From Flammeovirga sp. SJP92 (GTDB taxonomy: Bacteria > Bacteroidota > Bacteroidia > Cytophagales > Flammeovirgaceae): a stretch of DNA of 64,000 nt. The DNA is taken from the NCBI RefSeq assembly GCF_001583495.1, contig NZ_LQAQ01000111.1, forward strand, positions 248,001 through 312,000, read 5' to 3'. The notes below the pieces were generated by a model that saw nothing but the letters and a program-made list of their open reading frames with translations, was not told where the DNA came from and made no database searches. The translations under genes and the position numbers were made by a program. This document shows, piece after piece, positions 1,042 to 40,114 of the stretch (position 1 is the first letter of the stretch; the number at the start of each line of letters is the position of its first letter).

Positions 1042-1050
1042 TGAATAATT

Positions 1051-1211
1051 AAGTACAAATTCAAAATTATCTAATACTAATTCTATTTATTGTTTTGCGA
1101 TTGCTTCCTTCAAAAAAACTTTTAATAGAACCACTATTAATACGTTTTTTAGCGTTGTACTTACAAAAAATAAATTAGAATTAACTATGATTTATTTTTG
1201 ATTTAGTACTT
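1051..1211 (+). repeat. ~160-bp hairpin repeat, copy A
   Basis: Begins aagtacaaattcaaaatta and ends gatttatttttgatttagtactt. The two ends are imperfect inverted repeats, and the middle contains nested complementary runs (aatag/ctatt around the loop aacca), so the whole element can fold into one long bulged hairpin. By eye it is about 90% identical to copy C (25468-25624) and clearly related to copy B (4181-4338). It has no ORF. It sits directly downstream of a CDS, as do the other two copies. It could be a MITE-like element or a structured 3' UTR. Confidence 0.8.
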
Positions 1212-1245
1212 ATCTGAATTAGGTTACAACTATAGAGTCAGTAGA

Positions 1246-1284
1246 ATAAGGCTATTTCATTTTTTGGAATAGCCTAATTTTTTT
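1246..1284 (+). terminator. Rho-independent terminator after the truncated propeller gene
   Basis: Arms aggctatttc (1249-1258) and ggaatagcct (1266-1275) pair with one G-U, and a run of seven T follows. Between here and the next gene there is only a small hairpin (1333-1354) and the promoter at 1523; the rest of the 1042-1608 gap is AT-rich with nothing recognisable. Confidence 0.75.
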
Positions 1285-1608: not shown

Positions 1609-4173
1609 ATGAAAGCGAACTATTTCTGGGTGCGTAACATGTCTTTGTGCGTACTCCTCCTCCTCATGTCTAACATTTCATACTGTTACAGTGTTGCTCC
1701 AGATCTTGATTTGTATCAAGATATTAACAGTATTGAAAAACATGGTGACATTATGGTAGTCGGAGGTATTAGATCTTCAGATTATGCAGGTGCGGCCTAT
1801 GTTTACAAAAATGTAAACAATGTATGGGAAAATGTAGCCATTTTAAGATCTTCTAAAGGTCTATTGGCTAACGATGACTTATTTGGATTTTCAATTGCAG
1901 TCAATGATGATGTGATTGTTGTTGGAGCTCCATTATCGGGTAAAGTTTATGTTTATGAAAAACCTGCTTCAGGCTGGTCAGACATGACTGAAACTTTAGA
2001 ATTATCTTCTCCTTATCATACAGGAGATCATTTTGGTTATTCCGTTGCTCTTGGAGACAACGAAATTGCAGTAGGTGCTTTTAAGGCCTATAATTATCAA
2101 GGTAGAATTGCCTTATATAAAAAATCAGCGGGGAGCAAGTGGAGCACACAGACCCCTAAGCTAACTACTTTAACTTCTTCATCTCCAAGCTCAAAAGAAT
2201 ATGTTGGTCATGAAATTGCTTTAGCAGGAAGCACATTAGTATCAGGAGCTATAGGTAACTCTTCTTGGACGGGTGCTTTGTATGTTTTTGATATTGATTC
2301 ATCAGTTGGATCTACTATCACTGCTAAAGCTAAATTAACTTCATCTGCTCCAGATTTTCAATTAGGTATGCATGTATCTATATCTGAAGATGGAAATTTT
2401 ATTGCTGCTACTGAGTATGGACGATCGAAAAAAGGTTCAGTGAAAATCTTCAAGAAATCTGCAGGTTCTGATTGGACTGACAGAAAGGAAGCTTTTAGTA
2501 TTACTGAGTCTGAACTAGTGAATAATGATCATTTCGGTGCTGCTTTGAGCATAAGTGGAAACGGAATAGCAATTAGTGCTAGAAGCAAAAACAATAACAA
2601 AGGCAAGGTGTATGAATATGCCCTTAATTTTGTTGCTGATTCGGCTAGATTAGTCAAAACTTATGTGGCTGAAGATGGTCAAGAAGGAGATCTTTTCGGA
2701 AAAGAAGTATGTTATTTTGGAAATAGTGAACTTGTGGTAGCTGCTCCAGTGAAAGAAATTGACAAACTTTATTTCTTCGGTAATGCAACAGGTGTACCTC
2801 GTTCAAATTACACAAGATCAAGACATTTGGACATTGATGGAGATGTAATGGTATTGGGTGCTTTTGAAACTACTGAAACGATGTCAGGAACAGCATTTGT
2901 TTACGAAAGACAAAACGGGAAGTGGTTGCTAAAAGCGAAATTGACACCATCTGACAGAAGCAATAATGATATGTTTGGTTTTGCTGTTTCTATTCATGGT
3001 GACGATATTGTAGTTGGAGCACCAGCATCTAATACTGTTTATGTCTATGAAAAGCCTGCAAGTGGCTGGGCAAATGCAACAGAAACTAAAACTTTAAAAA
3101 ATCCTTTAGGAAGCTCTGGCTATTTTGGATTTTCTGTTGATAACAAATCTTCTGAAATTGTAGTTGGAGCATATCGATATTCAGGCTACACGGGTAGAGG
3201 TTTCTACTTTACAAAAACAGGAGCTTCATGGAAAGATGGTTCAAAAGTGACAACTTTAGTTTCACCTTCTCCAAGAGGGAATGAGTATTTTGGACATCAA
3301 ATCCGTTTATCTGATGATGCAATTTTGGTTGGAGCATTAGGTAAAAATTCATGGAGAGGTACTGCATATGTTTATAACCTGCCAGCTAGTGGTTTTAACA
3401 CTACTTCTGTTACTCCTGATGTAGAGTTGGTATCTCCTGATAATTCTGGTTTCCAATATGGAATACACTTAGATATTGAAGGTGACAGAATTGCAATTAC
3501 AGATTATGTAAGTTCATCAAACCTTATTGGAAAAGTACATATATTCGAAAAGAATTCTGGAGCACTTTGGACTTCAAATGTTCCGCACTTGACAATTAAT
3601 AATCCGTCATCAAGTCATGGAGATGGTTTTGGTTCTGATGTGAAACTAAAAGGTGGATCTTTATTAGTTGGTGCTTATGGTGAAGAAGTACATGGTGGAG
3701 CATATCTTTACAATGTAGATGTTGCTAATTCTACATATGATTCACTTGCATTGTTTGTTCCTGCAGGCGAAACAGATGCCATTCGTTTTGGTACTGGGGT
3801 AAGATTTCATGATGATCATGTAGTTGTATTAGCAGAGGAGAATCCTGAGCAATTCTTCTTTACATTCAACTATCCTGTAGGTGTTAGTAATTTACGTGAA
3901 GTATCTGGTGGATCATTAGCAAGTGAATTACAGAACAGTGTACCGAAATTGTTGAATACTGATCCTCTATTAAGAGGTGCTTCGAGTGCTCTTCAATTTA
4001 TCGATTTATCAAATAATGAATATTCATATTCAATTTTTAGTGCTGATGGAAGATTATTACAAAATGGAAAAGTAGATGGTAATGGCAATGTGAAATTAAA
4101 TGTAAATAGCGATCATTTAATTATTAAACTTGTTGATACTAAAGCAAACTTAGTTTATACATTTAGGTATTAA
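1609..4173 (+). CDS. Secreted double FG-GAP/beta-propeller protein with C-terminal sorting-like domain
   Basis: 854 residues. A hydrophobic signal peptide lies in about residues 10-27. Two related propeller-sized regions follow, roughly 30-395 and 400-760. They are internally duplicated: the motif VYVYEKPASGW occurs near residues 113 and 478, and blade phrases such as 'VVGA...Y..G..YVY' recur throughout. The last ~65 residues (YSYSIFSADGRLLQNGKV to TFRY) look like a T9SS-type sorting domain, suggesting secretion across the outer membrane. The second half is closely similar to the upstream truncated gene, so the pair is a tandem duplication. No enzyme motif is seen. The promoter at 1523 supports this start, and a hairpin repeat plus terminator follow the stop. 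Probable role is surface adhesion or ligand binding, by inference from FG-GAP propellers. Confidence 0.75.
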   Translation: MKANYFWVRNMSLCVLLLLMSNISYCYSVAPDLDLYQDINSIEKHGDIMVVGGIRSSDYAGAAYVYKNVNNVWENVAILRSSKGLLANDDLFGFSIAVNDDVIVVGAPLSGKVYVYEKPASGWSDMTETLELSSPYHTGDHFGYSVALGDNEIAVGAFKAYNYQGRIALYKKSAGSKWSTQTPKLTTLTSSSPSSKEYVGHEIALAGSTLVSGAIGNSSWTGALYVFDIDSSVGSTITAKAKLTSSAPDFQLGMHVSISEDGNFIAATEYGRSKKGSVKIFKKSAGSDWTDRKEAFSITESELVNNDHFGAALSISGNGIAISARSKNNNKGKVYEYALNFVADSARLVKTYVAEDGQEGDLFGKEVCYFGNSELVVAAPVKEIDKLYFFGNATGVPRSNYTRSRHLDIDGDVMVLGAFETTETMSGTAFVYERQNGKWLLKAKLTPSDRSNNDMFGFAVSIHGDDIVVGAPASNTVYVYEKPASGWANATETKTLKNPLGSSGYFGFSVDNKSSEIVVGAYRYSGYTGRGFYFTKTGASWKDGSKVTTLVSPSPRGNEYFGHQIRLSDDAILVGALGKNSWRGTAYVYNLPASGFNTTSVTPDVELVSPDNSGFQYGIHLDIEGDRIAITDYVSSSNLIGKVHIFEKNSGALWTSNVPHLTINNPSSSHGDGFGSDVKLKGGSLLVGAYGEEVHGGAYLYNVDVANSTYDSLALFVPAGETDAIRFGTGVRFHDDHVVVLAEENPEQFFFTFNYPVGVSNLREVSGGSLASELQNSVPKLLNTDPLLRGASSALQFIDLSNNEYSYSIFSADGRLLQNGKVDGNGNVKLNVNSDHLIIKLVDTKANLVYTFRY

Positions 4174-4180
4174 TCCTTAT

Positions 4181-4338
4181 AAGTACTAAGCCAAAATTAA
4201 ATAACACTAATTCATATTGTTTTTTCCGATTACTGCCTTTCAAAAACTTTAAATAGAACCACTATTTATTTGTTTTTGAGCGTTGTACTCGCAAAAAAAA
4301 CTAAGAATTAATTATCATTTATTTTCGGCTTAGTACTT
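4181..4338 (+). repeat. ~160-bp hairpin repeat, copy B
   Basis: Starts aagtactaagccaaaatt and ends tttcggcttagtactt, with 12 bp of perfect terminal inverted repeat (aagtactaagcc). The core has aaatag/ctattt around the same aacca loop as copy A. It is more diverged from A and C (about three quarters identical by eye), but changes in one arm are often matched in the other. It lies 7 bp after the stop of the propeller gene. The rest of the 4174-4481 gap holds the terminator below and AT-rich sequence. Confidence 0.8.
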
Positions 4339-4346
4339 AAAGCTCA

Positions 4347-4382
4347 AAAAAGGCTATTTCAGAGATGAAATAGCCTTTTTCT
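4347..4382 (+). terminator. Rho-independent terminator
   Basis: Perfect 14-bp arms, aaaaaggctatttc (4347-4360) and gaaatagccttttt (4367-4380), with a 6-nt loop and a following T-rich tail. It terminates the propeller gene after the hairpin repeat. Confidence 0.85.
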
Positions 4383-23972: not shown

Positions 23973-25466
23973 ATGATGAAAAATGAAAAAATACTTATTG
24001 CAATACTGTTTTTAATAACAGTTTTACCACAAGTTGTAAGAGCTCAAACTCAAAAGGGAAATCGACCTAATATTATAGTAATTCTAGCGGATGATCTAGG
24101 GTATGGGGACGTAGGTTTTACAGGTTGTAAAGACATCAAGACACCTCAATTGGACGCACTTGCTAGTAATGGAATCATTTGTACTAATGCATATGTAACG
24201 CATCCTTATTGTGGGCCTTCCCGTGCTGGTCTTCTCACTGGTCGATATCAGGCTAGGTTTGGAATGGAAATCAATCCTACTAACTCACCTTTTGATTTAC
24301 ATATGGGATTGCCACTTGAGGAAAAGACATTTGGAGAAAGATTGCAAAAGGTAGGATATAAGACTGCAATTATAGGAAAGTGGCATATGGGTGGTGCTCC
24401 TCCTTATCACCCTAATAATAGAGGTTTTGATCATTTTTATGGATTTTTATCTGGCGGACATAGTTATTTCCCTTCGGGAATAAATGCAATTTCACCTTTG
24501 ATCAATAAAAATGGCGATCCAAATTATTGTGCAAACGAAGGGGATTATAAACCTCTTTGGCGAAATAATGGAGCTGGAGAATTTAAGGAGTATTTGACCA
24601 AAGCATTAAGTCGTGATGCAGCTGCTTTTGTGAAGTCCACCGACAAGCCTTTTTTGTTGTATTTGGCTTATAATGCTCCTCATCAGCCACTTGAGGCACC
24701 TAAAGAAACGATAAAAAAGTACAGCCATATTGAAAACAAATATCGCAGAGTTTATGCGGCTATGATTGATGAAATGGACCAAGGAATTGGAATGGTTGTC
24801 AATGCGCTAAAGGAAACTGGGAAATTGGAAAATACAATTATATTTTTCTTGTCAGATAATGGTGGAGACCGTGGTATAAAACCATGGCAACCGGTACATT
24901 ATACTAGCAATTATCCTTTTAAAAAAGGTAAAGGCTCTTTCTTTGAAGGCGGTGTACACGTTCCGTTTTTTGTTCATTGGCCAAATGGAATCAACGAGGC
25001 TCTTGAGTTTGAAGGATTGGTTTCATCTTTGGATATCGCTTCAACTGCATATGCTGTGGCGGGTGTGGATACAACAGGGGCAAAGCTCGACGGAATTGAC
25101 CTGCTCCCATTCATTAAAAAAGAGAAAAAAGGTTCCCCCCATGAAGCGATCTTCTGGAGAGAATATGAGGGTAAATCTTGGGCTGTTAGAACTGTAGATT
25201 CAAAATACCTATTGAATAAACCTGGTGGTCAGCCTCAACTTTTTGACATGAAAAAGGATCCTTATGAGGATAAAAATATAGTAGAAAGTCAATCCAAAAA
25301 GAAAGCTTATTTAGCTGATCTATGGAATACTTGGAATGTTGATAATCAGCCTGTAATATGGTTGCAATCTTCAGATTACCAGAAAAGGAGGTTACAACTT
25401 TATGAAGACCTGCATCAAGAAATGTTGGATAAATCTTCTAAAAGAAAACCTGTACTAATTGAATAG
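23973..25466 (+). CDS. Type I sulfatase (S1 family)
   Basis: 497 residues. A signal peptide spans about residues 5-24 (ILIAILFLITVLPQVVRA). Metal-binding ILADDLGYGDVGFTG comes next. The formylglycine motif C-x-P-S-R is CGPSRAGLLTGR with Cys80, and GKWHMGG and FLSDNGG add further active-site residues. The Cys requires anaerobic or FGE-type maturation enzymes that are not in this window. It should remove sulfate esters from a polysaccharide in the periplasm or at the cell surface; the sugar and position cannot be told from sequence. It lies just downstream of the hybrid sensor, which supports regulation by it. A hairpin repeat begins 2 bp after the stop. Confidence 0.93.
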   Translation: MMKNEKILIAILFLITVLPQVVRAQTQKGNRPNIIVILADDLGYGDVGFTGCKDIKTPQLDALASNGIICTNAYVTHPYCGPSRAGLLTGRYQARFGMEINPTNSPFDLHMGLPLEEKTFGERLQKVGYKTAIIGKWHMGGAPPYHPNNRGFDHFYGFLSGGHSYFPSGINAISPLINKNGDPNYCANEGDYKPLWRNNGAGEFKEYLTKALSRDAAAFVKSTDKPFLLYLAYNAPHQPLEAPKETIKKYSHIENKYRRVYAAMIDEMDQGIGMVVNALKETGKLENTIIFFLSDNGGDRGIKPWQPVHYTSNYPFKKGKGSFFEGGVHVPFFVHWPNGINEALEFEGLVSSLDIASTAYAVAGVDTTGAKLDGIDLLPFIKKEKKGSPHEAIFWREYEGKSWAVRTVDSKYLLNKPGGQPQLFDMKKDPYEDKNIVESQSKKKAYLADLWNTWNVDNQPVIWLQSSDYQKRRLQLYEDLHQEMLDKSSKRKPVLIE

Positions 25467-25467
25467 T

Positions 25468-25624
25468 AAGTACGAATTCAAAATTATCTAATACTAATTC
25501 TATTTATTGTTTTGCGATTATTTCCTTCAAAAAACTCTTAACAGAACTACTATTAATACGTTTTTAGCGTTGTACTCACAAAAAATAAATTAGAATAAAT
25601 CATGATTTATTTTTGATTTAGTAC
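25468..25624 (+). repeat. ~160-bp hairpin repeat, copy C
   Basis: Starts aagtacgaattcaaaattat and ends atttttgatttagtac. It differs from copy A at only scattered positions and lies immediately after the sulfatase stop, in the same orientation relative to the upstream gene. The rest of the 25467-25844 gap is a second hairpin (about 25662-25695, agaacc/ggttct) with a weak T-run, AT-rich sequence and the SulP terminator. Confidence 0.8.
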
Positions 25625-25784
25625 CTACTTTCAATAAAGATTGTTTTCGTAAATCATAAACTGAGAACCTCATTACTATTTGGTGATGTGGTTCTTGATG
25701 ATTTATTCTACTCCCTAGCAGTCATTTTTTCTTTTTTGAAGAAATAATCAGAAAAGAATTATCTACTGTTCCAATAGAATTAAT

Positions 25785-37643: not shown

Positions 37644-37762
37644 AGGTTTAAGCAGGTTTTGTGTATTTTAATATATAAAGATGAATACATATAACATACC
37701 GTCAAATAAATAATCCGGTTATATTGATGTAATAAAATTACTTTATTTCTATTTTTCTTTAG

Positions 37763-37808
37763 GTGCTAAGTCGAAAATAGATAATAATTAATTCTGATTC
37801 ATATTCTG
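37763..37808. repeat. Degenerate half of the hairpin repeat
   Basis: tgctaagtcgaaaatagat and the following aataattaattct resemble the end of copy B read on the opposite strand (aagtactaagccgaaaata...). No matching second half follows. It is adjacent to the ispG terminator. Confidence 0.4.
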
Positions 37809-37841
37809 TGTACACAATTCGAATAATGGAATATAGTATTA

Positions 37842-39861: not shown

Positions 39862-39930
39862 TGAAATGCTTGTTTGCGACAAAAATACAGATAAAATTTA
39901 GATTGGGAATAGAATAAATGTTATAAGTAT

Positions 39931-39968
39931 TAAGTCAAAAATAATTTATCGTTGATTCCTAAAAGCCA
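39931..39968. repeat. Second degenerate half of the hairpin repeat
   Basis: ataagtattaagtcaaaaat and the following aatttatcgttgattcc match the outer end of the hairpin repeat at most positions. Together with 37763 it brackets ispG, in the same orientation, not inverted. The remainder of the 39862-40173 gap is AT-rich plus the AraC-gene terminator. Confidence 0.4.
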
Positions 39969-40114
39969 AGTGAAGAGAAATTTCTTTTTTTTCAGCTATT
40001 GGAGTTTAAAAATCAAAAATAAAACGATTTTGTTCACAGTTCTATTGTCTTTCTACTTATGTTACCAATAACCAAAATCTTAATGTTTTGTTTATATTGT
40101 AGGGATATTTGGTC

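Follow-up and report, generated by a model that had tools for sequence, protein, structure and literature searches.

A hairpin-shaped mobile repeat of Flammeovirga, often just 3' of genes, as a probable IS630-type MITE

The repeat described here, which occurs as three copies in the window (the whole stretch of 64,000 nucleotides of Flammeovirga sp. SJP92 DNA that was analysed), is a gene-less, hairpin-shaped mobile DNA, present at dozens of sites in some Flammeovirga species and often located just 3' of genes. It is very probably (about 0.92) an IS630-type MITE, that is, a non-autonomous DNA transposon, which inserts at TA. The earlier note on this DNA had offered a MITE-like element kept by its ends as one of two options, and it is this option that is borne out by TA borders, by pairs of filled and empty sites, and by IS630 elements of sister species that have similar ends and are likewise bordered by TA. 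The features by which MITEs are recognised occur together: the element is short and non-coding, it has terminal inverted repeats, its target duplication can be read from filled and empty sites, and its many copies are dispersed. At 158 bp, it could hold at most 52 codons, leaving no room for a gene. Its TA target and the likeness of its ends to those of an IS630-family insertion sequence are the features that relate it to IS630.

An IS630-type transposase probably moves or moved the element, judging from the sequences. In the proposed mechanism, an IS630-family transposase supplied in trans would recognise both ends (AGTAC... read inwards), cut the element out, paste it into a TA dinucleotide and duplicate that TA. 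By such steps the element would have spread in a few Flammeovirga species. It is found preferentially just 3' of stop codons, in either orientation, and some copies separate the stop codon from a terminator-like hairpin. When a TAA stop codon is entered at its TA, the first letter of the element, an A, would rebuild the TAA.

Copies in the window and in the genus

The three hairpin elements first noticed in the window are real. They form one homologous family of 158 bp, and the borders originally given for them were within 1-2 bp of those below. The terminal inverted repeats and the core with a conserved loop, also described at that time, correspond to AGTAC...GTACT ends and to a loop stem, AATAG-AACCA-CTATT, which is conserved in the copies, with two changes in copy C. 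A degraded half copy, additional to the three elements listed in the earlier note, is included here.

1050..1051, no strand: left target duplication TA of copy A
1052..1210, + strand: copy A, 158-bp palindromic MITE, main subfamily
1211..1212, no strand: right target duplication TA of copy A
1249..1275, + strand: hairpin resembling an intrinsic terminator, with a T tract after it, beyond copy A
4180..4181, no strand: left target duplication TA of copy B
4182..4337, + strand: copy B, MITE of the second subfamily, ends AGTACTAAGCC/GGCTTAGTACT
4338..4339, no strand: right target duplication TA of copy B
4346..4381, + strand: terminator-like hairpin beyond copy B, in one terminator scan and absent from the other
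25467..25468, no strand: left target duplication TA of copy C, immediately 3' of a TAG stop codon
25469..25625, + strand: copy C, MITE of the main subfamily, more mutated; absent at the orthologous places in three sister species
25626..25627, no strand: right target duplication TA of copy C
about 37761-37826, - strand: degraded right half of another copy, model positions 94-157 (E 3e-7)

Pairwise identity is 92% between A and C, 80% between B and A, and 77% between B and C. The stop codons before the copies (1039-1041 for A, 4171-4173 for B and 25464-25466 for C) are separated from the left TA by 8, 6 and 0 bp, respectively, and all three copies run in the direction of their upstream gene. Copy A is located between its stop codon and the terminator-like hairpin at 1249..1275. 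The genes at 40-1041 and 1609-4173 of the window encode adjacent FG-GAP_2 proteins with C-terminal ends that are alike, and both are followed downstream by a MITE copy (A and B, of different subfamilies) and then by a similar terminator-like hairpin. Elsewhere in the window, a stretch of 134-135 bp at 39926-40060 lies between two TA and has the ends AGTATTAAGTCAAAAATAATTTATC and ATTGTCTTTCTACT. One of these ends matches the repeat family weakly (E 0.015), and the stretch is either an old copy of the family or a different IS630-type MITE.

A search of the genome and its relatives for more copies, as the earlier note had proposed, was productive. In the SJP92 genome, which comprises 8.49 Mb in 123 contigs, a core pattern searched with up to 2 mismatches is matched 81 times, and the same pattern reversed, as a control, 2 times. 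There are 100 core matches in F. aprica JL-4, 43 in Flammeovirga sp. OC4 and 70 in Flammeovirga sp. EKP202; the other five Flammeovirga genomes have 2-5 each (controls 0-1), and nine genomes of other genera have 0-3 each (controls 0-4). When the complete element serves as query, G001 and G008 among the five low-copy Flammeovirga genomes give no match, and the remaining three give 1, 5 and 2. Matches to a pattern built on the ends number 353, 456, 215 and 256 in the four genomes with many copies and 19-28 in the five other Flammeovirga genomes, the reversed control giving 13-20 in these nine genomes. Some insertions are seen by eye to be common to two species, and part of the spread is therefore older than those species.

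In all, 245 hits were reduced to 165 distinct copies, the remainder being the same site fetched again, partial copies, or copies with indistinct ends. Distinctness was judged by exact flanks, and inherited insertions are counted twice where one flank letter differs (by eye, L058/L163, L062/L161, L130/L178 and others); the copies are thus not all independent events. Loci L114 to L206 are among the matches listed for an exact core pattern, and because they rest on that pattern, degraded copies are under-represented.

Target sites and the candidate IS630 partner

The element starts with AGTAC in 149 of the 165 copies and ends with GTACT in 140; it is exactly 158 bp long in 97 and 157-158 bp long in 124. 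TA is present on both sides of 141 of the 165 distinct copies, a set in which the choice of borders favours TA. A second set was restricted to the 55 copies that are 158 bp long and have exact AGTAC/GTACT ends, and here the choice of borders weakly favoured only A and T next to the ends; TA is present on both sides in 48 of them, the frequency of TA in the flanks being 0.109.

Empty sites, which the earlier note had named as the test for a transposon, were looked for, and pairs of filled and empty sites were found that place the insertion at TA. Seven candidate pairs were aligned, and three have a readable junction. The pair L011 (SJP92) and L183 (F. aprica) is in exact agreement with the duplication of one TA, and the pair L077 (SJP92) and L199 (OC4) agrees with it apart from one changed letter. 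It counts against an IS630-type MITE that the third pair, L116 (OC4) and L194 (EKP202), has a clean junction but an empty site one TA short of what a 2-bp duplication predicts, and that the other four pairs lack a readable junction. At the place that corresponds to copy C in each of three sister species (F. aprica, OC4 and EKP202), the end of a sulfatase gene is followed by a hairpin, with no element between them. The case of copy B is weaker, since its upstream gene is unmatched in the relatives; the neighbourhood of its downstream gene is found in eight genomes without the element. The idea that the element inserts into palindromic terminators was rejected, as the complementarity of its flanks equals that of shuffled pairs (over 8 bp, 2.69 versus 2.62).

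The repeat had been described as having no associated transposase. This holds for the SJP92 genome, in which no matching transposase was found, but not for two relatives. In F. aprica, an IS630-family transposase is encoded between TA-AGTACTAGGACAAAAG and CTTTTGTCACAGTACT-TA, and in EKP202 another is encoded between TA-AGTACTGGAACATATT and AATTTGTCTTAATACT-TA; the EKP202 insertion sequence directly adjoins, and apparently sits inside, a repeat copy. The assignment to IS630 is based on a DDE_3 domain and on the NCBIfam model transpos_IS630, which scores above its cut-off; a search of PDB sequences with the transposase gave no match. An end of the second subfamily, AGTACTAAGACAAAAT, shares 14 of 16 letters with the left end and 13 with the right end of the F. 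aprica insertion sequence, and 11 and 14 with the left and right ends of that from EKP202. The ends of the main subfamily match less well, which also speaks against an IS630-type MITE: with the same four IS ends, its left end shares 11, 10, 9 and 11 of 16 letters, and its right end 13, 12, 9 and 12.

A further difficulty is that neither the SJP92 genome (G000) nor OC4, both of them rich in copies, yields a match to the transposase of F. aprica, and the mobilising enzyme is for that reason deduced from relatives. In these two genomes, loss of the transposase, its location in a gap of the assembly, or the action of a different enzyme could account for this. Because a partner can be lost, a matching insertion sequence in the same genome was not counted as defining. 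DDE_3 genes are present in all four high-copy Flammeovirga genomes and in none of the five others, a co-occurrence that is partly coincidental, because in SJP92 and OC4 these genes belong to IS630 elements whose ends are different. The repeat ends and those of the other IS630 in SJP92 agree at 7-8 of 16 letters; the only DDE_3 gene of that genome, with ends ACATTGTAAACTAA..., was considered as the partner and rejected, as no more than 8 of 16 letters agree. No autonomous element with the ends of the repeat was found in 20 regions of the SJP92 genome, read around end matches from the listed first part of the 353; in these regions, with the nearest partner taken up to a limit of 2.5 kb, no two paired ends are more than 264 bp apart. 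The second IS630 of this genome (C39:10013) has the ends ACATTGTAAACTAA, and similar ends interrupt repeat copies at L217, L218 and L220 (on contigs C58, C39 and C15).

Position relative to genes

In the SJP92 genome and the three relatives, 178 copies were placed relative to genes, which in these counts are open frames of at least 80 aa and not curated annotations. After exclusion of 18 copies at the edges of loci and 13 that fall within open frames, 102 are in tandem, 28 in convergent and 17 in divergent intervals. Convergent intervals hold 19% and divergent intervals 12% of these 147 copies, for which TA sites predict 13% and 22% in a control that pools all intervals, and these exceed the element-bearing ones in length. 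A control matched by interval was therefore run with 155 of the 178 copies, excluding 19 edge copies and 4 that shared an interval. It gives 16.0 tandem copies within 20 bp of a 3' end (sd 3.2; 0 of 2000 draws as high as the observed value), and 38 of the 107 tandem copies are found there. At 5' ends, 13 of the same 107 copies are within 20 bp and 33 within 50 bp, against 16.8 and 35.2. The bias towards 3' ends is real, and 5' ends are neither enriched nor clearly depleted; simple promoter avoidance thus fails to explain the position of the element. The bias may come from survival or from targeting. In a separate count of flanking genes for 79 copies of the SJP92 genome, the arrangement is > > in 28, < < in 25, > < in 13 and < > in 9, and 4 are without an upstream gene.

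The earlier note had placed the elements in the same orientation as the preceding gene, which is correct for copies A, B and C but is not a rule. Among 102 tandem copies, 49 have the same orientation as the genes and 53 the opposite one, and the agreement of the three copies is therefore due to chance. Where a stop codon is no more than 60 bp from the side of an element, the two orientations number 48 and 34.

At 13 of 134 element sides (those, out of 316 tested, with a gene end within 150 bp), the target TA supplies the first two letters of the stop codon, and the A with which the element begins supplies the third. In 10 of the 13, an A beyond the far TA indicates that the insertion went into a TAA stop codon and re-created it, although two of these (L130 and L178) look like one inherited insertion. 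In two others (L185:7010 and L204:5488), the former codon was TAC or TAT and the frame was truncated; the last is ambiguous. A terminator-like hairpin follows at most 110 bp beyond the element at 27 of 82 sides, compared with 1.0 in sequence subjected to a mononucleotide shuffle, and window copies A and B both retain such a hairpin.

The hairpin, rival explanations and known systems

Deleted and rearranged forms are part of the family. Short forms of 38-62 bp keep only the ends (lengths include the two TA, the full form being 162 bp when so counted). A 49-bp form recurs at L210, L221, L222 and L224 and as a stretch of L209, and there are two further 49-bp spacings in F. aprica. Five copies of the SJP92 genome have internal tandem duplications with different break points. 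In L060 (1406-1563), the apex of the hairpin is exactly inverted, and in L078 (1957-2127) it has turned symmetrical, or homogenised; both are as template switching in a palindrome would give. At L214 (about 1114-1276), another palindromic, TA-flanked element with the ends AGTACTAGGACAGAAGAAAA lies inside a repeat copy. The same core also occurs with different ends: a divergent relative, L099 (genome G005), has AGTACTCCAC/GTGGAGTACT, L089 has AGTACTGTGACAAA, whose 14 letters are identical to those with which the F. aprica IS630 ends on its right side, and a further type has AGTAC(T/C)AAGACAAAA. In the 40 most divergent copies, conservation is 0.88-0.90 for the inner parts and 0.80-0.84 for the ends. 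Taken together, these end types and the better conserved core suggest another, unlikely reading, in which the inner hairpin and not the ends is the lasting unit, and the ends are exchanged to follow the transposase at hand. If this were true, the core may aid transposition or protect the element when transcribed.

The second option of the earlier note, a selected structure, would make the hairpin an RNA structure at the 3' ends of mRNAs, serving as a terminator, stability element or processing site. The bias towards 3' ends and the better conserved core would fit such a role, as would the folding of the window copies. Compared with dinucleotide shuffles and with the TA included, the fold has a z of -5.2 for copy A and -9.0 for copy B (0 of 200 shuffles as good) and of -2.4 for copy C (4 of 200 as good; the folded stretch, 25467-25626, is one base short of the right TA end). 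The co-variation of the arms that had been noticed between A and B is found at 4 of 57 consensus pairs, where double changes leave the pair intact (10-149, 34-124, 61-98 and 71-87); of the other changed pairs, three have double changes that are unpaired (one with a gap), four are broken by one-sided changes and two still pair after one-sided changes, and no double change separates A from C. RNAalifold, which the earlier note had recommended, finds almost no structure (-0.96) in 155 copies, and the pair statistics therefore use the fold of the consensus sequence, on a tree of the 155 distinct sequences among the 162 in the range of 150-166 bp. Double changes on the same branch number 21, about 10 more than the 11.4 obtained when changes are dealt out at random on the tree (sd 3.1, maximum 21 of 300). 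Eight of the 21 end paired, compared with 3-6 of the 9-12 double changes in slid controls, but 13 of the 21 fall in seven of the most divergent copies. One-sided changes on the terminal branches of the 149 youngest copies keep the pair in 51 of 203 cases (25%), and the mutation spectrum predicts 26-27%; because this is the chance rate, no upkeep of pairing after insertion is seen, and compensatory pairing does not exceed chance. The change rate of stem columns is about one third lower than that of unpaired columns (0.015 versus 0.023 per site), which is in favour of selection and is not predicted by drift after insertion of a MITE; it cannot be explained fully, and the unpaired columns include those that separate the subfamilies. 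Considering also the random orientation, the empty orthologous place of copy C in three species, the recurrence of deleted forms that lack the core, and the lack of an Rfam match for the window (at gathering scores) or copy A (at E up to 1), a selected RNA is highly improbable.

The compensated differences between subfamilies may be due to selection for matched ends, to template switching from arm to arm, or to both. Template switching of DNA in the hairpin would renew the pairing of the arms without selection for structure, and would add to the explanation as a MITE rather than replace it. The apices of L060 and L078 and the five tandem duplications are in keeping with this process, which is possible though doubtful, as there are two clear cases among 165 copies (a third that was flagged, L070, is a deletion form) and most differences between the subfamilies are single letters that require no such event. 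It is also conceivable that the repeat is a palindrome of the REP/RAYT or IS200/IS605 kind, for which an HUH enzyme reads the folded single strand. A long, imperfect and mostly extragenic palindrome in many copies, with one inverted and one homogenised apex, would suit that model, yet the TA borders and the IS630-like terminal inverted repeats make it scarcely credible.

Read as an IS630-type MITE, the repeat adds an abundant family of such elements to Flammeovirga, and the rebuilding of stop codons on insertion is a simple route to harmlessness at gene ends. For annotators, it gives a named cause for hairpins 3' of Flammeovirga genes that could be mistaken for terminators or RNA elements. A literature search found no paper joining Flammeovirga with "miniature inverted-repeat" or with IS630, and MITE, transposase and IS630 are all absent from the main text of a paper on Flammeovirga genomes (PMC8653839).

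Among known systems, RUP of the pneumococcus is described in the relevant passages of two papers (PMC2229807, PMC3049150) as a non-coding repeat of 107 bp with 108 intergenic copies, IS630-like ends and TA targets. In those accounts, RUP with IS630-Spn1 resembles the Flammeovirga family as a short non-coding repeat with IS630-like ends and TA target sites; it differs in length (107 bp, not 158 bp), in sequence, and in having its insertion sequence in the same host, whereas that of the Flammeovirga element is found only in sister species. The Correia or NEMIS elements of Neisseria, at about 107 and 155 bp, have terminal inverted repeats, TA termini and hairpin transcripts according to the part of PMC2229807 that deals with them, and their long and short forms have a parallel in the internally deleted forms of the Flammeovirga family. 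As portrayed in the corresponding parts of PMC2229807 and PMC3049150, Correia elements have ends of 24-26 bp with another sequence; their long form carries an IHF motif, and they undergo cleavage by RNase III. The pneumococcal BOX element supplies the 3' stop codon in 36 of 58 overlapping coding sequences, as stated in the section on BOX in PMC3049150. The provision of a stop codon by a repeat is thus similar, the Flammeovirga element giving it by its first A, but BOX is linked in that section to ISSpn2 and not to IS630. The Flammeovirga repeat is a new family of IS630-type MITEs, the same sort of element as RUP and comparable to Correia elements; it is interesting in its detail and ordinary in kind.
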